From positions 1-57,160 of the IMG/VR virus record IMGVR_UViG_3300022843_000014: a stretch of 57,160 nucleotides of DNA. One strand, written 5' to 3'. Positions 4,059 to 57,160 of this stretch are shown in pieces; position 1 is the stretch's first letter; the number at the start of each line of letters is the position of its first letter. Source of the DNA: a virus. The translations under genes and the position numbers were made by a program. The notes below the pieces were generated by a model. The model had not been told where the DNA came from, did not search any database, and worked only from the letters and a program-made list of their open reading frames with translations.

Positions 4059-5954
4059 ATGGAAGATAAAGGTGTATTTACCAAATTAAAACGATTATTT
4101 TCTACTGATGTAGTAATACGAAATGTAGGAGGAGATCAAATTAAAGTCATAGATTCGGGTCACATTCAGTCTAGCGGAGAGTATGAAACAAACTCTGTAA
4201 TAGACAGATTTAATAAAGTTTATTCTTCGGCACCAACTTCCTTATACGGGGCTCAATTTAATCTAAATTATCAGTACCTTAGGACTCAATTGTATTCAGA
4301 ATATGATGTAATGGATACTGATGCTATTGTGGCTTCTTCTCTTGATATTATAGCGGATGAATCCACACTTAAAAATGATATGGGAGAAGTACTTCAAATT
4401 AGAAGTTCAAATGAAGATACACAGAAAATATTATACAACTTGTTTTATGATGTGTTAAACGTAGAGTTTAATTTATGGATGTGGGTTAGACAGATGTGTA
4501 AATATGGTGACTTTTTTTTAAAGTTAGAAATAGCTGAAAAATTTGGTGTTTATAATGTTATACCCTATACCGCCTATCATATTGAAAGGGTTGAAGGGTC
4601 AAATCCTGATAACCCCTCGGAAGTAAGATTTAAATGGAATCCTGAAGGTTTTTCTGGTGCTTCCTCTAGTGGATATTATGGAACAGCAAGCTCCCGTGGT
4701 TTAGATGATGATGGAAGTAGTATAGTATATGATAATTACGAAATGGCTCATTTTAGAATGGTGGGTGATGTTAATTATTTACCTTATGGTAGATCTTATA
4801 TTGAACCCGCTAGAAAATTGTTCAAACAGTATACTTTAATGGAGGATGCTATGCTTATTCATAGAATAGCCCGAGCACCCGAAAAAAGAGTATTTTATGT
4901 AAATGTTGGAGCTATACCTCCTAATGAAGTAGAAGCATTTATGCAAAAAACTATAACAAACATGAAACGTGCTCCTATGATGGATGAAAAAACCGGAGAA
5001 TACAATTTAAAATATAACATGCAAAACATGTTAGAAGATTTTTATATTCCGGTTCGTGGAAGTGACAGTGCAACAAAAATTGAAACAACTCCAGGCCTAC
5101 AATACGATGGTATCGCAGATGTTGAATATCTAAGAGAAAAATTATTTGCTGCCTTAAAAGTACCTAAATCTTTTATGGGTTACGGGGAAGGAGAAGCAGG
5201 TAAATCTACTTTGGCACAACAGGATATTAGATTTGCTCGTACTATTGATAGAATACAAAGAATACTACTATCAGAATTGCAAAAAATAGCATTAGTTCAT
5301 CTATACACACAGGGACATAGAGATGAAGCTTTAACAAATTTTGAATTGTCAATGACAACTCCTTCTATAATTTATGATCAAGAAAGAATTGAGCTAATGA
5401 AATCTAAATCCGAGTTAGCAGGAACATTGTTAGAGCAAGGTTTAGTGCCTTCTGATTGGATATATGATAATGTTTATCACTTTAGTGAAGATCAAATTGG
5501 GGAATATAGAGATTTAGTTCGTGAAGATTCTAAACGTAAATTTAGAAATGGTCAAATACAGGAAGAAGGTAATGATCCTTTAGAAAGTGGTCAATCCTAC
5601 GGAACCCCACATGATTTAGCTTCATTATATGGTAAAGGTAGAACAATGTCTGATCCCTCTAATGTACCTGATGGGTATTCTGATGATTTAGAAATGGGTC
5701 GACCTAAAGATGGTATTACTAACCGAGGAAAACAAGATAATAATTTTGGTAAAGATCCTTTAGGTGTTAAGGGTATGAAAGGAACAGATAAAAATGATGG
5801 AAACCCTAAACCTAGATTGTCTGAATTTGAGGATCCTAAAATTACTTTTTTAAAGAATAAAGACATCTTTAAAGGGTTAGATAAAAAACAGCTAATATTT
5901 GAACAAGATAAAGCAGATTCTTCACTACTTGATGAATCTCGATTAAGATCCTAA
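4059..5954 (+). CDS. 20: Portal protein (gp20-like)
   Basis: A 631-residue protein, close to the usual size of T4-like portals (about 520-600). It forms the dodecameric ring at the head vertex through which DNA passes and on which the prohead core is built. The recognisable core runs from about residue 70 (YDVMDTDAIVASSLDIIADE) to about 480, including FFLKLEIAEKFGVYNVIPY and the tunnel-region segment GYGEGEAGKSTLAQQD. The last 120 residues are charged and probably disordered. It lies directly between the terminase and the head genes. Confidence 0.92.
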   Translation: MEDKGVFTKLKRLFSTDVVIRNVGGDQIKVIDSGHIQSSGEYETNSVIDRFNKVYSSAPTSLYGAQFNLNYQYLRTQLYSEYDVMDTDAIVASSLDIIADESTLKNDMGEVLQIRSSNEDTQKILYNLFYDVLNVEFNLWMWVRQMCKYGDFFLKLEIAEKFGVYNVIPYTAYHIERVEGSNPDNPSEVRFKWNPEGFSGASSSGYYGTASSRGLDDDGSSIVYDNYEMAHFRMVGDVNYLPYGRSYIEPARKLFKQYTLMEDAMLIHRIARAPEKRVFYVNVGAIPPNEVEAFMQKTITNMKRAPMMDEKTGEYNLKYNMQNMLEDFYIPVRGSDSATKIETTPGLQYDGIADVEYLREKLFAALKVPKSFMGYGEGEAGKSTLAQQDIRFARTIDRIQRILLSELQKIALVHLYTQGHRDEALTNFELSMTTPSIIYDQERIELMKSKSELAGTLLEQGLVPSDWIYDNVYHFSEDQIGEYRDLVREDSKRKFRNGQIQEEGNDPLESGQSYGTPHDLASLYGKGRTMSDPSNVPDGYSDDLEMGRPKDGITNRGKQDNNFGKDPLGVKGMKGTDKNDGNPKPRLSEFEDPKITFLKNKDIFKGLDKKQLIFEQDKADSSLLDESRLRS

Positions 5955-45599: not shown

Positions 45600-45794
45600 A
45601 TGACACCAATAGAAACAATAGCATTAGTATTAGTATCCTTAGTTTATACAGCTTCCCAACAATTATTAAATTGGTGGGGTAGAGTAGAACTAAAAGAACC
45701 ATCTGCCAGTTTATGGGGTTTGGTGATATTTCTTTTTATGATAACAAATATCTTATTTTATACTTTTATAATATACATGATAGAGTTAATATAA
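45600..45794 (+). CDS. Small two-segment membrane protein
   Basis: A 64-residue protein with two membrane segments, about 4-24 (IETIALVLVSLVYTASQQLL) and 38-63 (SLWGLVIFLFMITNILFYTF). It starts 5 bases after the previous stop with AAAAGTTATG. It precedes the split phosphoesterase by 5 bases. The function is unknown; small phage membrane proteins of this kind often act in exclusion or lysis control. Confidence 0.55.
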   Translation: MTPIETIALVLVSLVYTASQQLLNWWGRVELKEPSASLWGLVIFLFMITNILFYTFIIYMIELI

Positions 45795-45799
45795 AGAAT

Positions 45800-46521
45800 A
45801 TGAAAAACATAAAAACAATTACTCCGGGGAAAGCTAAACTTCGTGTTTGGCATTTCTCGGATACGTAACTCATACTTACCATAATTTACTAGTAGTACCT
45901 GAAGGTATTGATATGGTTATATTTAGTGGCGACTGTTCTAACCCCAGAAACCCTTATAATAACGAACCCGAAGTTAGAAACTTTATAGATTGGTTTAGTA
46001 ACCTACCTATTAAACATAAAGTGTTTGTAGCAGGAAACCATGATAGTTCAATTGAAAAAGGTTTAGTAACTAAGGCGGACTTTGATGGTGAATGTATTTA
46101 CTATTTAGAAAATACTCATATCACTATTGAGGGTATAAAGATATTTGGTTCACCTTATACACCTCAATTTGGAAATTGGTCATTTATGAAAGAAAGACAT
46201 AAATTAGATAGAATGTGGGATAAAGCAATAGACGACGACTCAGATATTATAGTAGTTCATGGCCCTCCCAAAGGAATATTAGACTTATCTTATGATAGAG
46301 CAAATAAACTTGAAAATTGTGGTGATAAAAGTCTATGGAATAAAGTTCAAGTAGTAAAACCAAAATTAATGTTATCTGGCCATATTCATGATAACAAAGA
46401 TATCATAAACTCTGGTACTAGAACAGTAAGAGGATTAGATACAATTTTTTCAAACGGTTCTGTAGTAACTGATGGTAAGTTTGGTAGATTAAGTAGTAAT
46501 GGTAATATTTTAGACATATAA
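45800..46521 (+). CDS. Metallophosphoesterase, split after SDT by a stop and frame change
   Basis: The ATG frame gives 22 residues ending VWHFSDT, then TAA at 45866-45868. In the -1 frame a 224-residue protein continues from HTYHNLLVVPEGIDMV with all later calcineurin-like phosphoesterase motifs: SGDCSNP, VAGNHDSS, VVHGPPKG and LSGHIHDNK. The normal first motif, SDTH, is thus cut between T and H. Relative to an intact frame there are five extra bases (GTAAC after ATAC). Removal of these, or a hop from ACG (45863) to ACT (45868), restores FSDTHTYH exactly. Either a recent inactivating insertion, a sequencing error, or recoding. The family usually cleaves phosphodiesters or phosphomonoesters. 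Confidence 0.75.
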
Positions 46522-48462: not shown

Positions 48463-48897
48463 ATGAAAGAATATAAAGTAGAAGTTACAGAAGGAAGTAC
48501 AAGATGGTACAATTTAGAAGGGAAACGTCATAGAGAAGATGGCCCCGCTATTGAGTATTCAAATGGAGACAAATGGTACTACATTAATGGTCAACTTCAT
48601 AGAGAGGATGGTCCAGCAATTGTATGTATGAATGGAGACAAATGGTACTTCATTAATGGTAAACGTCATAGAGAAGATGGACCTGCTGTTGAGTGGAAAA
48701 ATGGATCTAAATCTTACTACATTAAGGGTGAGTGTCATAGAGAAGATGGACCTGCTATAGAATGGGTAAATGGAGATAAGTGTTACTTCATTAATGGTGA
48801 AGAATTAACCGAAGAAGAATTTAATAGTAGAACTAAAACCTGTGAAGGTAAGGTAGTAGAGATAGAAGGTGTAAAGTATAAATTAACTAAAATATAA
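48463..48897 (+). CDS. HREDGPA-repeat protein (copy 1)
   Basis: A 144-residue protein made of four tandem repeats of about 23 residues (pattern WYxINGxxHREDGPAIExxNGDK) from about residue 13 to 105, then CYFINGEELTEEEFNSRT and a short end. The repeats resemble MORN-type beta hairpins and are probably a small elongated beta sheet. The function is unknown. Its 3' end is almost identical in DNA to that of the copy at 54619. It is preceded by a host-type promoter and AAAAGTTATG. Confidence 0.7.
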   Translation: MKEYKVEVTEGSTRWYNLEGKRHREDGPAIEYSNGDKWYYINGQLHREDGPAIVCMNGDKWYFINGKRHREDGPAVEWKNGSKSYYIKGECHREDGPAIEWVNGDKCYFINGEELTEEEFNSRTKTCEGKVVEIEGVKYKLTKI

Positions 48898-48902
48898 AAG
48901 TT

Positions 48903-49499
48903 ATGGTAGAGTATAAAGTTAAAGTTACAGAATATAGCACAGAATGGTACAACTTAAAAGGTCAACTCCATAGAGAAAATGGACCTGCTGTTAAGTGGAC
49001 AAGTGGATATAAAGCTTACTACATTAATGGTATAAAACATAGAGAAGATGGACCTGCTATTGAATATAGTGATGGAGCTAAATATTACTACATTAATGGT
49101 AAACGTCATAGAGAGGATGGTCCCGCTATTGAACATGCAGATGGAGGTAAATGGTACTACATTAACGGTAAACCACATAGGGAAGATGGCCCTGCTATTG
49201 AACATGCAGATGGAGGTAAATGGTACTTCATTAACGATAAATTATTAACCAAAAAAGAATTCAACAATAGAACAACACAAACAACTACAAAAATAGAAAC
49301 AATTATGATGTCACTTTATGATTATTTAGGAAAAGCAGCAGGTCCTGCTTTAGGAAAAAAAGTTTATGCTTATTCAAAAATTAGAAAAGAAAAAAAAGAA
49401 ATGAGAGATGTAGAAAACTCCAAATTTACGGGTGAAGTTTTCATATACAGAAAAGAATTCTTAGATGAATATTTTAAGGTCGAAAAAATATTTCAATAG
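48903..49499 (+). CDS. HREDGPA-repeat protein fused to a SLYDYLGKAAG domain (copy 2)
   Basis: A 198-residue protein. Residues about 14-120 are four 23-residue repeats of the same type as its neighbours, then KLLTKKEFNNRTT. From residue 135 the sequence changes to MMSLYDYLGKAAGPALGKKV, continuing to FTGEVFIYRKEFLDEYF. This second part looks like a separate small phage protein whose own start (ATG ATG at 49305-49310) is kept, so it could also be made on its own. The fusion is probably recent. It starts 5 bases after copy 1. Confidence 0.65.
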   Translation: MVEYKVKVTEYSTEWYNLKGQLHRENGPAVKWTSGYKAYYINGIKHREDGPAIEYSDGAKYYYINGKRHREDGPAIEHADGGKWYYINGKPHREDGPAIEHADGGKWYFINDKLLTKKEFNNRTTQTTTKIETIMMSLYDYLGKAAGPALGKKVYAYSKIRKEKKEMRDVENSKFTGEVFIYRKEFLDEYFKVEKIFQ

Positions 49500-49645: not shown

Positions 49646-49798
49646 ATGATGGAAACAATTATACATACATTGGGGCTGTGTGGTGAAAACCACCTCAAAT
49701 TAATTGACCTGGTAGGTATTTATCCCCATATTATTGAAAACAAAAATACGTTAGCCTATACGTTTAAGAATACCTGGCAAAATTTAAATTTAAGATAA
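49646..49798 (+). CDS. Small conserved-looking protein
   Basis: A 50-residue protein (METIIHTLGLCGENHLKLID, then VGIYPHIIENKNTLAYTFKN). Proteins starting with this IIHTLGLCGEN text occur in other phages without known function. Two adjacent ATG codons at 49646 and 49649 could start it. It ends 1 base before the QueC-like gene and is probably cotranscribed with it. Confidence 0.5.
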   Translation: MMETIIHTLGLCGENHLKLIDLVGIYPHIIENKNTLAYTFKNTWQNLNLR

Positions 49799-49799
49799 T

Positions 49800-50672
49800 A
49801 TGGTAAAGCAAAAAGAACACGTAGTAGTATCATTAAGTGGGGGTTTAGATTCAAGTACATTACTTTTAAGATGTCTAAAGGAATTTAAAACTGTAACGGC
49901 GATAAGCTTTGATTATGGTCAAAAACACAGAGTAGAATTAGAAAGAGCTCAATCATTAGTAAAATATCTCCAAGACCAAGGGTTTGAATTAACTCACCAA
50001 ATAATAACATTAGGAGGGTTGTCTAATCTACTTGTAAGTGGTTTAGTAGATAATGGATCTATGGAAATGAAAAAGGGTCACTATGCTCACGAAAACGCAC
50101 TGACAACCGTAGTTCCAAATCGTAATGCTATATTTGCATCAATTACATATGCCATAGCTTTATCCATGGTTAAACGAACAGGGGAGTCGTGTAAAATAGC
50201 TTTAGGGACACATATGGGGGATTTTAACAACAAAACACAAACCGGAATATACCCTGATTGCTCAGAAGAGTTTCGTGTAGCTTTAGAACATGCCTTTAAA
50301 ATAGGAAATTGGGATTCCGATAAAGTAGATTACTATGCTCCATATAATATAACTGACAAAACCGGAGTATTGAAAGACGGCATTGAATGTTGTAAAAAAT
50401 TAGGGTTAGATTATAAAGAAATATATAGTAGAACAATGACCAGTTATGCTCCAATTTATGTAGGTTTTATTGATGGGGGGGATGATAATATAGAAAAAGG
50501 AGTATGGTATAGTGACTACTTAAGTGGATCAAGTATTGAACGTGTGGAAAGTTTTATCAAGTTAGGAATAGAAGACCCAGTTCAATATGCCGAAGAGGAT
50601 GGTACTTTAGTTTCATGGGAATTTGTTAAAAAATATGTTGAGAAAATTTGTAAAGAATACACACCCTCATAA
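49800..50672 (+). CDS. queC: QueC-like 7-cyano-7-deazaguanine synthase without zinc cysteines
   Basis: A 290-residue PP-loop ATPase of the QueC family, which turns 7-carboxy-7-deazaguanine into preQ0. The PP-loop is SLSGGLDSSTLLL near residue 11, followed by ISFDYGQKH and VPNRNAIF, and TGIYPDCSEEFR. In bacterial QueC the C-terminus holds four zinc cysteines (TWSCY and CGxCxxC). Here the matching text is TMTSYAP and YSDYLSGSSIERVESF, so all four are absent, although the flanking GIEDPVQY is kept. The reaction may be altered. With the DpdA-like gene it suggests 7-deazaguanine DNA modification. The other pathway genes are not in this window. Confidence 0.8.
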   Translation: MVKQKEHVVVSLSGGLDSSTLLLRCLKEFKTVTAISFDYGQKHRVELERAQSLVKYLQDQGFELTHQIITLGGLSNLLVSGLVDNGSMEMKKGHYAHENALTTVVPNRNAIFASITYAIALSMVKRTGESCKIALGTHMGDFNNKTQTGIYPDCSEEFRVALEHAFKIGNWDSDKVDYYAPYNITDKTGVLKDGIECCKKLGLDYKEIYSRTMTSYAPIYVGFIDGGDDNIEKGVWYSDYLSGSSIERVESFIKLGIEDPVQYAEEDGTLVSWEFVKKYVEKICKEYTPS

Positions 50673-53544: not shown

Positions 53545-53616
53545 TAGCCTGTGGTATAACGGTTATTACATTTGACTTTGACTCAAATAATGGGAGTTCG
53601 ATTCTCTCCAGGCTAA
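53545..53616 (+). tRNA. tRNA-Gln(TTG)
   Basis: Acceptor TAGCCTG pairs with CAGGCTA; stem TTTGA/TCAAA encloses CTTTGAC with anticodon TTG at 53578-53580. D-loop with GG and T-loop AGTTCGATTCT are present. Confidence 0.9.
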
Positions 53617-53660
53617 CAATAATCAGAATAAAAGTAAATAAATTGAGATTAGTATTTATA

Positions 53661-53757
53661 GCAAACGGAAACTTTGCAATAGCAGCCTAGCAATAGGCTT
53701 TAAATCCTTAAACAAGGTTTATAGATTTAACGTACCGCCTGAAACGTAATTCAGGCA
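53661..53757 (+). ncRNA. Structured RNA with a tmRNA-tag-like reading frame
   Basis: GCA at 53661 opens a short frame A-N-G-N-F-A-I-A-A followed by TAG (53688-53690), close to the E. coli tmRNA tag ANDENYALAA. The stop codon lies in a perfect hairpin, AGCCTA-GCAA-TAGGCT, as in tmRNA helix 5. More stems follow: TTAAATC/GATTTAA enclosing CCTT/AAGG, and GCCTGAA/TTCAGGC. GCAAA and TTTGC at the start of the frame also pair. No acceptor or T-arm belonging to it is visible nearby, so this is either part of a split or decayed tmRNA or an unrelated hairpin chain. Confidence 0.4.
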
Positions 53758-53760
53758 AAT

Positions 53761-53833
53761 GGCTCTATGATGTAACTGAATAGCATAGAAATCTTCTAAA
53801 TTTCTTGTATGGGTTTGAATCCCATTAGAGTCT
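53761..53833 (+). tRNA. tRNA-Arg(TCT)
   Basis: Acceptor GGCTCTA pairs with TAGAGTC (one G-T); stem GAAAT/ATTTC encloses CTTCTAA with anticodon TCT at 53795-53797. The D-loop (AACTGAATAG) lacks the usual GG pair, which is odd. The T-arm is regular. Confidence 0.85.
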
Positions 53834-53840
53834 CAAATAA

Positions 53841-53915
53841 GCAGGTGAGGTTAAGGTAACCGGTTGCTCTCCAAAAGCAATGATACACGAATAGGTTCGA
53901 TTCCTATCACCTGTG
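53841..53915 (+). tRNA. tRNA-Trp(CCA)
   Basis: Acceptor GCAGGTG pairs with CACCTGT, with discriminator G as usual for Trp. Stem TTGCT/AGCAA encloses CTCCAAA, anticodon at 53871-53873. Confidence 0.9.
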
Positions 53916-53940
53916 CAAAAATTAATATAATTATTAAATC

Positions 53941-54450
53941 ATGAAAAATCGTTATGACAAAACCTTAGTAATTGACTCTAGTTATATTGCTAGGAGTATT
54001 ATCACCACAGAAAGAGCATTTGTAGTATCATATAAGGGAAATGCAGACATAATAGAGGAATACCCAGAAACATTTGGTGTTGTAAACCCAAATCTAACAA
54101 TTTTTAAACCTTCTATTATTAGAGTACACACTTATGTAAAAATGAATTTTCAAAAAGTACCTCTAACACGTGAAAATATATTTAAAAGAGATGGGTATTT
54201 GTGTGTATATTGTGGTCACGATAAACGCAAGGATCTAACGATAGATCACGTTATACCTCAATCTAAAGGTGGGCCTAATACATGGGATAATTTAGTATCC
54301 GCTTGTATAAAATGTAATAATGAAAAAGCAAGTCTAACATTAAAGGAATATGGAAAATCTATTCCAAAACCAAAAAGACCCCATTATCTAATGTTATTAA
54401 AAAAAACATTATTTATACCGGATGAATGGAAACTTTATTTATTAATGTAG
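53941..54450 (+). CDS. HNH endonuclease (tRNA-cluster insertion)
   Basis: A 169-residue protein with an HNH core in the C-terminal half: IFKRDGYLCVYCGHDKRKDL (first CxxC), TIDHVIPQSKGGPNTWDNLV (catalytic His in DHV) and ACIKCNNEKAS (second CxxC). The N-terminal 80 residues are an unrecognised beta-rich domain. Genes of this group are widespread in bacteria and phages. Insertion between tRNA-Trp and tRNA-Cys suggests a mobile element. It begins 25 bases after tRNA-Trp, without a clear promoter of its own. Confidence 0.85.
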   Translation: MKNRYDKTLVIDSSYIARSIITTERAFVVSYKGNADIIEEYPETFGVVNPNLTIFKPSIIRVHTYVKMNFQKVPLTRENIFKRDGYLCVYCGHDKRKDLTIDHVIPQSKGGPNTWDNLVSACIKCNNEKASLTLKEYGKSIPKPKRPHYLMLLKKTLFIPDEWKLYLLM

Positions 54451-54456
54451 AAAATT

Positions 54457-54530
54457 GAGCAAGATGTTTATGGTTGGACAGTTAGTTTGCAAAACTAATC
54501 TTTTAGTGGGTTCGATTCCCACCTTGCTCT
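54457..54530 (+). tRNA. tRNA-Cys(GCA)
   Basis: Acceptor GAGCAAG pairs with CTTGCTC; stem TTAGT/ACTAA encloses TTGCAAA, anticodon at 54489-54491. The gene starts 6 bases after the HNH stop codon. Confidence 0.92.
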
Positions 54531-54563
54531 CAAAAATATAAGTAAAAAACAAATACAAAAAAA

Positions 54564-54597
54564 CTAGGTTACCCGGAATATAGTTCGTATATTTACA
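54564..54597 (+). promoter_or_regulatory. Host-type promoter
   Basis: CTAGGTTACCC at 54564, spacing 20, TTCGTATATTTAC at 54584-54596. It precedes the third HREDGPA-repeat gene by 22 bases. Confidence 0.65.
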
Positions 54598-54618
54598 CCT
54601 AATAAAAAAATAAAAGTT

Positions 54619-55053
54619 ATGAAAGAATATAAAGTAGAAGTTACAAAAAATAGTACAGAATGGTACAACATGGAAGGTAGACGTCATAGAGAAGATGGAC
54701 CTGCTATAGAGCTTGCAAACGGAGATAAATATTATTACATTAATGGTAAACGTCATAGAGAGGATGGTCCTGCTACTGAGTGGGCAAGTGGATATAAAGC
54801 TTACTACATTAATGGTAAACGTCATAGAGTGGATGGGCCTGCTGTAGAGTGGGAAAATGAATATAAGTGTTACTACATTAATGATCAACGTCATAGAGAA
54901 GATGGACCTGCTATAGAATGGGTAAATGGAGATAAGTGTTACTTCATTAATGGTGAAGAATTAACCGAAGAAGAATTTAATAGTAGAACTAAAACCTGTG
55001 AAGGTAAGGTAGTAGAGATTGACGGAGTAAAGTATAAACTATCTAAACTATAA
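54619..55053 (+). CDS. HREDGPA-repeat protein (copy 3)
   Basis: A 144-residue protein of four 23-residue repeats (WYNMEGRRHREDGPAIELAN, and so on) and the same C-terminus as copy 1 (TEEEFNSRTKTCEGKVVEID). The last 90 bases are almost identical to copy 1, and the start AAAAGTTATGAAAGAATATA is the same. It stands alone among tRNA genes with its own promoter, so it is probably a dispersed duplicate that moved as a gene-plus-promoter cassette. Confidence 0.7.
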   Translation: MKEYKVEVTKNSTEWYNMEGRRHREDGPAIELANGDKYYYINGKRHREDGPATEWASGYKAYYINGKRHRVDGPAVEWENEYKCYYINDQRHREDGPAIEWVNGDKCYFINGEELTEEEFNSRTKTCEGKVVEIDGVKYKLSKL

Positions 55054-55064
55054 TCATATAAAGA

Positions 55065-55098
55065 CTAGGCTACCCGGAATATAGTTCGTATATTTACG
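55065..55098 (+). promoter_or_regulatory. Host-type promoter of the second tRNA cluster
   Basis: CTAGGCTACCC at 55065, spacing 20, TTCGTATATTTACG at 55085-55098. It leads to the second boxA-like element and tRNA-Leu. Confidence 0.7.
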
Positions 55099-55115
55099 GA
55101 ATAGAAAATAATAAT

Positions 55116-55137
55116 AGTTCATTGACATATTGGATAA
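55116..55137 (+). promoter_or_regulatory. boxA-like leader element, copy 2
   Basis: Identical over 22 bases to 53342-53363 and, like it, placed within 10 bases of the first tRNA of its cluster. The flanking DNA differs between the two copies. Confidence 0.5.
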
Positions 55138-55146
55138 GATTAAATT

Positions 55147-55219
55147 GCTCATGTGGTGGAATGGTATACACGGCTGTTTTAGAAGCAGTATTTTGCAGGT
55201 TCGAATCCTGCCATGAGTA
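55147..55219 (+). tRNA. tRNA-Leu(TAG)
   Basis: Acceptor GCTCATG pairs with CATGAGT (one G-T); loop TTTAGAA gives anticodon TAG at 55180-55182. The D-arm TGGTGGAATGGTATACACG is leucine-like, but the variable arm is short, unlike normal leucine tRNAs. Confidence 0.8.
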
Positions 55220-55220
55220 C

Positions 55221-55470
55221 AAAAAACTGTTCGAGTACTAATTATGACTTATCACTCTAATTAGGAAGTAGTGGACAAATATATACTAAAGGTCATTAAT
55301 CAATAAACTAACCAGAATGGTTCTGATACTGAACTTGAGATTAAAGCGGTTGGATTCCGAAGTGTTAACAGGTTTAAAAGGGTAAGCTAGTTACTGTTAA
55401 TGCAAAAAATACAAGTTAGACGTTCGAAGGAGAACTTAAAAGGTATTCAAATCACCATTCTAACTTAATT
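55221..55470 (+). other. 250-base structured spacer with a tRNA-like end
   Basis: No coding frame or complete tRNA. Perfect stems include CTAATTA/TAATTAG near 55240-55265, CAGAA/TTCTG near 55315, and TAACAG/CTGTTA near 55366-55400. At the 3' end AAGTTAGA and TCTAACTT pair as an acceptor-like stem around GTTC/GAAC and a T-arm-like GGT-ATTCAAATC-ACC. This could be a tRNA-like RNA lacking D and anticodon arms, or a remnant. Confidence 0.4.
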
Positions 55471-55542
55471 GCCTCTAAAGCATAAATGGTAATGTGCCCG
55501 GTTTGTGCCCGGAGGAACAGGGTTCGATTCCTTGTAGAGGCT
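55471..55542 (+). tRNA. tRNA-Thr(TGT), less likely tRNA-His(GTG)
   Basis: Acceptor GCCTCTA pairs with TAGAGGC. A 7-base loop TTTGTGC between CCCGG and CCGGA gives TGT at 55504-55506. Shifting by one gives GTG, but the discriminator is T and there is no extra G at the 5' end as histidine tRNAs need. The stem has one C-A mismatch. Confidence 0.65.
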
Positions 55543-55625
55543 CTAAAAGTAATTCAACCTCGCTTAGCGATAAACTAACTCTAAAAACGTTTTACCAATG
55601 AGGGAGGTCAATGTTTACTTTTAAT

Positions 55626-55698
55626 GCGAGTGTAGCTCAATTGGCAGAGTGCTATCTTTCCACGTTAGAAGTTGGGGGTTCGAACCCCCCCACTCGCT
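55626..55698 (+). tRNA. tRNA-Gly(TCC)
   Basis: Acceptor GCGAGTG pairs with CACTCGC; loop TTTCCAC gives TCC at 55659-55661. One T-T mismatch lies in the anticodon stem. The T-arm GGGGGTTCGAACCCCC is strong. Confidence 0.9.
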
Positions 55699-55736
55699 CT
55701 TTTTTACATTTTCGGGCATTTTTATAAATTTTTGTA

Positions 55737-55745
55737 TATGTATGA
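55737..55745 (+). promoter_or_regulatory. Late-type promoter motif, variant
   Basis: TATGTATGA followed by TAAAC lies 22 bases before the HNH start at 55759. Confidence 0.4.
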
Positions 55746-55758
55746 TAAACAATAACAT

Positions 55759-56445
55759 ATGAAAAATATAAAATGGGAAAATGATTTATCTGGAATACTA
55801 TTAGGAAATATAATAATTAATAGTAATTCGAGTTTAAGAAGGTGGATATTAAAGAAAGAAATATTCCCCTATAAATGTAATAAATGTAAGATTGAAAAGT
55901 GGAATAGTGAGATAGTAATTTTAGAATTAGAACACATTGATGGGGATAGAAAAAACAACAAAAAAGAAAATTTAGAATTATTATGTCCCAATTGCCATTC
56001 TCAAACCAGTACATATAAAGGAAAAAATATTAAAAAAACAACACAAATTATAGACGATTCTGACAAGATCATAGACTTATTTAAAAAAGGATATAATATT
56101 AATCAAATATTAAGTACATTAAGTTGGTCAGGAGGTAAGAATTATAAAATAGTATATAAAATATTAAAAGACAAGGGAATTAACCTTCCCACAAAACATG
56201 ATATGTTTTTATTAAAAAAAGATAAGAACCAACAAAAAATAGAAAAAAAATTAAGTGTTTTACAAAATCGAATTAATATTGTTAAAACCTGTAATATTAA
56301 TTTCAACCAACATGGGTGGGGGATAAAATTATCCAAACTTATAAATTTAACTCCTTCAGCCACCCTAAAATTTATGAAAAGAGAATTACCTGAGTTTAGT
56401 AAAAAATGTTGGCAACATTCAGATAATTTAAATATACAATATTAA
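55759..56445 (+). CDS. HNH endonuclease (second tRNA-cluster insertion)
   Basis: A 228-residue protein. The N-terminal half holds an HNH core: CNKCKIEKWN (first CxxC), LELEHIDGDRKNNKKENLEL (catalytic His in EHID) and LCPNCHSQTSTYKGK (second CxxC with His). The C-terminal half is basic and helical with two possible helix-turn-helix segments, probably for site recognition. It lies between tRNA-Gly and a spacer before tRNA-Glu and carries its own late-type promoter, as do the other inserted endonuclease genes. Confidence 0.85.
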   Translation: MKNIKWENDLSGILLGNIIINSNSSLRRWILKKEIFPYKCNKCKIEKWNSEIVILELEHIDGDRKNNKKENLELLCPNCHSQTSTYKGKNIKKTTQIIDDSDKIIDLFKKGYNINQILSTLSWSGGKNYKIVYKILKDKGINLPTKHDMFLLKKDKNQQKIEKKLSVLQNRINIVKTCNINFNQHGWGIKLSKLINLTPSATLKFMKRELPEFSKKCWQHSDNLNIQY

Positions 56446-56577
56446 AGCAAGCGGTTACTTGACTCCTAATATGTACAGTAACAGTCGCCTAGATTTTAGG
56501 AAGTCTGAGGGCGGTACGTCATTAATGCTCAATTTAATGGTAGGTACGTATCAATATTATGTTAAAACCTACATTCT
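56446..56577 (+). other. Hairpin-rich spacer before tRNA-Glu
   Basis: No gene is visible. GTTAC/GTAAC (56453-56495), CGCC/GGCG (about 56496-56523), and TACGT/ACGTA enclosing CATTA/TAATG (about 56515-56555) can pair. It resembles the other inter-tRNA spacers in being full of short perfect stems. Confidence 0.35.
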
Positions 56578-56649
56578 GCTCCTGTCGACAACTGGCTAAG
56601 TCACTACCCTTTCACGGTAGAGTAGAGGGATCGATACCCTCCAGGAGTA
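56578..56649 (+). tRNA. tRNA-Glu(TTC)
   Basis: Acceptor GCTCCTG pairs with CAGGAGT; stem CTACC/GGTAG encloses CTTTCAC, anticodon at 56611-56613. From the anticodon arm to the T-loop it is nearly identical to tRNA-Asp at 56802. Confidence 0.92.
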
Positions 56650-56654
56650 CAATT

Positions 56655-56727
56655 GGGGATATGGTGAAATTGGCTATCATAGTAGATTTGCATTCTGCTG
56701 TTCCGAGTTCGAACCTCGGTATCTCCA
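56655..56727 (+). tRNA. tRNA-Ala(TGC)
   Basis: Acceptor GGGGATA pairs with TATCTCC; stem GTAGA/TCTGC encloses TTTGCAT, anticodon at 56689-56691. Confidence 0.92.
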
Positions 56728-56801
56728 CAATTATGGGATATCTACCTTAGGTAGGTGTTCTGTCAAGGTTTTTAAGGTTGAACCCGTAATCAACCTTAAC
56801 C

Positions 56802-56873
56802 GGTCTATTAGTGAACTGGCTATCATGCTACCCTGTCACGGTAGAGTAGAGGGATCGAAACCCTCATAGACCG
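56802..56873 (+). tRNA. tRNA-Asp(GTC)
   Basis: Acceptor GGTCTAT pairs with ATAGACC, with discriminator G. Stem CTACC/GGTAG encloses CTGTCAC, anticodon at 56835-56837. An AAGGTTG/CAACCTT hairpin lies just upstream (about 56773-56797). Confidence 0.93.
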
Positions 56874-56879
56874 CCAAAT

Positions 56880-56950
56880 TGCGTTAAGGTGTAAAGGTTG
56901 CATGGGACTCTCATAAGGTCTACGGGGTGGTTCGAATCCACATTACGCAA
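56880..56950 (+). tRNA. tRNA-Met(CAT), first
   Basis: Acceptor TGCGTTA pairs with TTACGCA with one T-T mismatch; loop CTCATAA gives CAT at 56912-56914. The T1-A72 end pair is unusual. A modified CAT that reads isoleucine AUA is an alternative. Confidence 0.8.
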
Positions 56951-57011
56951 CTAAATAGTTTTATAGGTCGTTCTGTCCTTGAGTTCTATTTCAAAACTCT
57001 AAAAAAGGCAA

Positions 57012-57087
57012 GGTCCCTTAGCTCAGTCTGGTAAGTAGCAACTCGCTCATAACGAGAAGGTCACAGGTTCAAATCCTGTAGGGACCA
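57012..57087 (+). tRNA. tRNA-Met or tRNA-Ile2(CAT), second
   Basis: Acceptor GGTCCCT pairs with AGGGACC; stem CTCG/CGAG encloses CTCATAA, anticodon at 57048-57050. Normal D- and T-arms. The G1-C72 pair argues against an initiator. Beyond it, 57088-57160 shows nothing I can assign. Confidence 0.88.
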
Positions 57088-57160
57088 CAAAAATATTTAT
57101 CCAATATACTTCTAATTATTTATTATATTTCCTTGACCCCTGCTTGGGTACCATACTTAT

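Follow-up and report, generated by a model that had tools for sequence, protein, structure and literature searches.

Until now, gene 60 of phage T4 has been nearly the only natural example of programmed translational bypassing. Bonocora et al., in 2011, reportedly described mobA and the bypass as forming one mobile cassette. Gene 60 owes its origin to a homing endonuclease that split gene 39, and its 50-nt insert may protect it from cleavage (PMC5009743). A stem-loop at its 5' side is assigned a pulling role, exerted by refolding behind the ribosome (PMC5009743, PMC11194080), and the mobA homing endonuclease of T4 has been described in two papers (PMC2988022, PMC3014915). Counterparts of this bypass, perhaps shorter, had long been presumed by the time of a 2016 review (PMC5009743). 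Here we describe an interrupted phosphoesterase gene in a virus DNA of 57,160 bases (IMG/VR record IMGVR_UViG_3300022843_000014; this whole stretch is referred to as the window). Judging from its sequence and from its relatives, this locus was very probably left behind as a scar by a mobile homing cassette that brought with it a re-created gene start and a signal for programmed translational bypassing of 5 nt.

The split phosphoesterase gene and its relatives

The window locus comprises the following features.

45793..45837, + strand: relic of a homing endonuclease C-terminus, KEYEKHKNNYSGES followed by a stop, in the -1 frame, sharing bases with the leader and with the 5' arm of the hairpin; 14 residues match the end of the L030 endonuclease at 86% identity
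45800..45865, + strand: putative re-created start of the phosphoesterase gene, MKNIKTITPGKAKLRVWHFSDT, whose last codon is the take-off ACG
45823..45861, + strand: RNA hairpin of 16 bp, -21.9 kcal/mol, z -5.1; covariation in 10 sequences
45863..45865, + strand: predicted take-off codon ACG (Thr), which holds the P site when the A site contains the stop
45866..45868, + strand: in-frame stop TAA immediately 3' of the take-off codon (TGA instead in L091 and L134)
45868..45870, + strand: predicted landing codon ACT (Thr), decoding restarting at CAT 45871; ACN at the equivalent place in 10/10 loci
45871..46521, + strand: remaining metallophosphoesterase (MPPED2-like) with GD, GNHD, HGPP and GHIH motifs intact; dN/dS 0.09 against L005

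The frame opening at ATG 45800 runs for 22 codons, ends in SDT and meets TAA at 45866-45868, while the -1 frame, read from ACT 45868, gives THTYHNLLVVPEG and stays open until TAA 46519-46521. A 5-nt hop from ACG to ACT would yield a 238-aa product with an exact SDTH and no residue gained or lost. Domain and family searches assigned the downstream part to the calcineurin-like phosphoesterases (PF00149, E=5e-9; phrog_1649). The nearest PDB protein is MPPED2, whose ISDTH aligns with the GDTH of one uninterrupted relative. An earlier note on this DNA had placed the split at SDT, with the later motifs in the -1 frame, and all of its coordinates held; right about the split, it had overlooked the hairpin (45823-45861), the endonuclease tail (45793-45837) and the relatives.

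Elsewhere in the window, ten tRNA genes are clustered at 53545-57088, one of them tRNA-Thr(UGU) at 55471-55543; an eleventh may lie at 56880-56950. Two adjacent ORFs of repeated HREDGPA-type units (48463-49499) are probably tandem copies of one gene, and at about 49746-49963 the DNA is 78% identical to a gene of Flavobacterium phage immuto, that for 7-cyano-7-deazaguanine synthase.

A protein search of IMG/VR with the phosphoesterase returned 79 loci. The interrupted start of the window was found in two others, and the rest with the start present read through D-[T/S]-H. A block of ~90 bases common to the window, L030 and L015 is nearly identical among them, while the genes after it are only ~70-75% alike and the preceding flanks differ. 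The segment at 45800..45865 is homologous in L030 and L015, and four of the five differences fall at third codon positions. The idea that this block is a widespread repeat was rejected; it is confined to these three sequences. Pattern searches revealed the same gap in L084, L085, L086, L088, L091, L092 and L134, in sequences that are otherwise different. The gap, ACN-TRA-CN from Thr to Thr, thus occurs on ten IMG/VR contigs from different samples, in seven to eight divergent lineages with protein identity down to ~50%, and SDTH is uninterrupted in about 70 relatives. Of 77 distinct phosphoesterase loci, 68 were contiguous, 8 were broken, all by exactly this 5-base gap, and 1 started at a contig edge. 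The L002 contig apparently carries two versions of the phosphoesterase start, as two distinct segments.

A search in which the hairpin and stop were fixed and the landing codon was left free recovered the same gapped phosphoesterase loci, each with ACN followed by CAY; 14 further matches to the hairpin pattern, none of them phosphoesterases, were due to chance. The third bases of the take-off and landing codons are unlike in 6/10 contigs, which indicates that the two are matched by codon box. The base after the stop is C in 10/10 gapped loci, a weak termination context, though one forced by the landing codon. Bacterial genomes gave no match to the longer gap pattern and only three chance matches to the shorter one. 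In the isolated-phage relatives examined (elemo and immuto) the gene is annotated as one uninterrupted CDS; the gapped alleles all lie on metagenomic contigs. Gapped genes were scattered in a phosphoesterase tree, mostly beside uninterrupted ones, and the 9 gapped rows required 8 changes, an uncertain guide to how often the gap was independently acquired: it is a minimum-change count in which gains and losses are indistinguishable and well-supported branches force 4 of the changes.

Taken in isolation, the window would look like a pseudogene made by a five-base insertion, or like an assembly error, which the earlier note had offered as the simpler reading. L015 has a second frame break (about 4990-5005), where four extra bases, a CAAC-like duplication after the landing site, disrupt the downstream frame; this also fits such a reading and may itself be decay or assembly error. 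The ten contigs, however, share a gap of identical size, with no other break type in its place, and the sequence after it is constrained. Between gapped genes and their uninterrupted sisters, dN/dS after the gap was 0.09 (window/L005), 0.10 (L030/L033) and 0.08 (L084/L076), with dS near 1, compared with 0.12 for an uninterrupted control pair, also with dS near 1; between gapped genes the values were 0.14-0.35. The downstream frame contains no stop over 217-227 codons. On the other side, all ten gapped loci encode an [I/L/F]SDT peptide before the gap, while codons of the preceding residues vary. These comparisons indicate that both sides of the gap evolve as conserved protein, and that the gap did not arise as a mutation private to the window or through faulty assembly. 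Given also the covariation of the hairpin described below, gene death or error is an extremely unlikely explanation. The other reading in the earlier note, a 5-base hop, was strengthened by the conservation of the same gap, and of intact downstream motifs, among the relatives.

The frame might be restored in other ways. It is regained by any net -1 (mod 3) shift, including -1 or +2 frameshifting, and removal of five bases from the mRNA predicts an identical protein. A -1 or +2 shift would, however, insert residues between D and H of D-x-H, a spacing that is invariant in uninterrupted relatives, and a slippery heptamer was not seen; as for removal, we know of no enzyme that takes five such bases out of RNA. 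We consider restoration by these routes unlikely. Alternatively, the downstream frame could be initiated independently, giving a phosphoesterase that lacks the motif-I aspartate. An in-frame TTG does precede THxxH in the window and L030, as does an ATG in L085 and L091. In L084, L086, L088 and L092, however, THxxH is not preceded by any ATG, GTG or TTG that could be used downstream of the last stop, and L134 has only a TTG touching the T codon. The [I/L/F]SDT with which the other frame closes is conserved in 10/10 loci, which also argues against such starts and makes them very improbable. Most likely, as far as sequence can tell, the ribosome jumps the gap.

The RNA hairpin before the gap

The window hairpin has an outer helix of 9 bp (45823-45831 with 45853-45861), an A.A mismatch and an inner helix of 7 bp (45833-45839 with 45845-45851) closed by the loop UUCGU. 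Across the gapped genes, UCCGRGR.. pairs with ..UCUCGGA in an outer helix of 8-10 bp, topped by an inner helix (5-8 bp) with UUCG, GAGA, GAAA or other loops. A stable hairpin adjoins the last codon before the gap in every gapped gene and in no uninterrupted gene; the minimum free energy of the region was -20 to -28 kcal/mol in 10/10 gapped genes, compared with a mean of -4.8 (sd 2.1, best -10.4) in 60 uninterrupted relatives. In a covariation analysis of the 10 sequences, 84% of cells were paired and 7 pairs had changed on both sides, in an alignment fitted with a misplaced-helix model and so not biased to the structure, which was itself derived from the same sequences. The covariation score was reached by 0/500 shuffles, and slid registers paired at most 48%.

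The reading frame in which the 5' arm, TCCGRG, falls differs from phage to phage, and in three of them the arm lies beyond the endonuclease stop; the conserved entity is thus the RNA, and neither peptide explains it. With the frame of this arm varying and the leader peptides differing, a conserved nascent-peptide signal is absent from the ten gapped loci. The take-off codon and stop are not inside the hairpin, which ends before take-off, and weak extra pairing over the take-off codon occurs only in the window and L015. Three apparent revertants (L035 1480-1537, L046 4951-5011 and L049 3525-3585) are uninterrupted and keep a relic of the 5' arm, while the 3' arm and the gap are both gone, a joint loss that suggests that hairpin and gap are functionally tied. 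The 3' strand of the inner helix terminates 12 bases upstream of an ACN that occupies the P site, approximately where mRNA leaves the ribosome.

The upstream endonuclease gene and its remains

Among the GIY-YIG homing endonucleases of phages, T5orf172 proteins form a subfamily (PMC10448857). The gene upstream of the gap in L030, L086, L091 and L092 matched phrog_681 in all four (E down to 1e-28), and T5orf172 (PF10544) scored above the cut-off in L030 and L091 and below it in L086. NCBIfam and PDB sequence searches with the endonuclease returned nothing useful; structure prediction was poor (mean pLDDT 64.6) and a fold search was uninformative. The domain matches indicate that the upstream gene encodes a T5orf172/GIY-YIG homing endonuclease, which would cut the uninterrupted target and home into it. 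Its 3' end overlaps the phosphoesterase leader and, in L030 and L086, also the hairpin. Six loci have an endonuclease tail alone: KEYEKHKNNYSGES in the window, KEYEKYKNNYSGES in L015, KYIYEQFKQRSPR in L134, EQFKTESPRE in L088 and IINDFKK in L084, each followed by a stop, and a 61-residue C-terminal piece in L085. The L084 tail, the shortest, is suggestive only as an endonuclease relic.

The original phosphoesterase start is stranded before the endonuclease as MKIWHIGDT in L030 and MKILHISDTHS in L086. Such a stub is present in only 2/4 endonuclease-bearing contigs; L091 shows none, and L092 ends at the contig edge. No stub was seen upstream in the window, L015, L084, L085, L088 or L134, all of which bear the gap. 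In L088, whose neighbourhood is that of L086, both stub and endonuclease have been cleanly lost and the gap persists. If a self-splicing intron contained the endonuclease, joining the stub to the downstream part in L030 and L086 could make the full motif. No Rfam intron was found at gathering scores, however, and there is no room for one, with only tens of bases between stub, endonuclease ORF and hairpin. Retention of the gap in the six loci where no stub was seen, and the [I/L/F]SDT encoded before the gap in 10/10, also speak against splicing, which we regard as highly unlikely.

Proposed mechanism and comparison with known systems

We propose that a T5orf172/GIY-YIG endonuclease gene inserted itself at the SDT/H codons of phage phosphoesterase genes and brought with it a re-created gene start, the cassette junction bearing the five extra bases and the hairpin adjoining the take-off codon. 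Ribosomes would initiate at an upstream ATG that overlaps the endonuclease tail, read ~20-22 codons to ACN and meet UAA or UGA, whereupon the peptidyl-tRNA-Thr would slide 5 nt to the next ACN to give an exact SDTH. The tRNA-Thr(UGU) encoded in the window could, speculatively, be the hopping tRNA. From the position of the inner helix, ending 12 bases upstream, and the blocked outer helix, which would be unable to close before the ribosome advances, we infer that refolding behind the ribosome would pull the mRNA 5'-ward and the ribosome forward, a role most likely like that of the gene 60 5' stem-loop. The five additional bases, together with the altered codons, would probably keep the endonuclease from cutting its own copy, a plausible form of self-protection. 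In the window, the endonuclease has been lost, with the gap and hairpin remaining.

Several properties expected of programmed bypassing occur together here. Take-off and landing are non-overlapping ACN codons, five bases apart and served by one tRNA family, and a covarying hairpin is a conserved signal and candidate stimulator, both in 10/10 loci; selection on protein is visible in both frames, as dN/dS of ~0.1 after the gap and as [I/L/F]SDT before it. We think it reasonably probable that these loci represent a recurring class of homing cassette with its own short bypass signal, in which the endonuclease would break essential codons and block recutting with the protein unchanged, the signal would outlive the endonuclease, and the hairpin would by itself suffice to carry the ribosome 5 nt past a stop, with no nascent-peptide signal. 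If this is true, the origin of bypassing as a by-product of selfish homing genes, which need immunity without harm to the host gene, becomes testable. With ten natural alleles, some retaining the endonuclease and others lacking it, and with the apparent revertants, the parts of the signal become readable from evolution and testable in short constructs. A literature search, mostly without subscription journals, found no report of such a 5-nt homing-linked bypass.

The likeness to T4 gene 60 that the earlier note had pointed out is even closer than claimed there, as this site is likewise tied to insertion of a homing endonuclease. In both gene 60/mobA and the present loci, a stop directly follows the take-off codon, take-off and landing codons belong to the same tRNA family, a stem-loop lies 5' of take-off, the gene split is linked to a homing endonuclease, and the insert is proposed to protect against cleavage (PMC5009743, PMC3014915, PMC2988022). 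Unlike in gene 60, the gap here is 5 rather than 50 nt, the codons are Thr codons rather than GGA, and the hairpin adjoins the take-off codon. The gene encodes a phosphoesterase rather than a topoisomerase, the endonuclease is of the T5orf172 rather than the HNH type, and many independent alleles occur, in another phage group. Neither a nascent-peptide signal nor a stem-loop holding the take-off site was found, and this would therefore be a distinct form of programmed bypassing, not one of the gene 60 type.

Short extra nucleotide blocks are skipped at many places in Magnusiomyces capitatus mitochondria as well, but bypassing there is said to be independent of mRNA context, whereas a conserved hairpin and a stop are always present here (PMC5009743). 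Synthetic stop hops in E. coli also use matched codons flanking a stop to encode one residue; those are 9-nt constructs, whereas the present offset is 5 nt, natural and conserved (PMC5009743). With free-standing phage T5orf172 endonucleases the upstream genes share the T5orf172 domain, weak DUF723 similarity, phrog_681 membership, presence/absence variation and decay, but here, unlike in those cases, a recoding signal lies in the target gene (PMC10448857).
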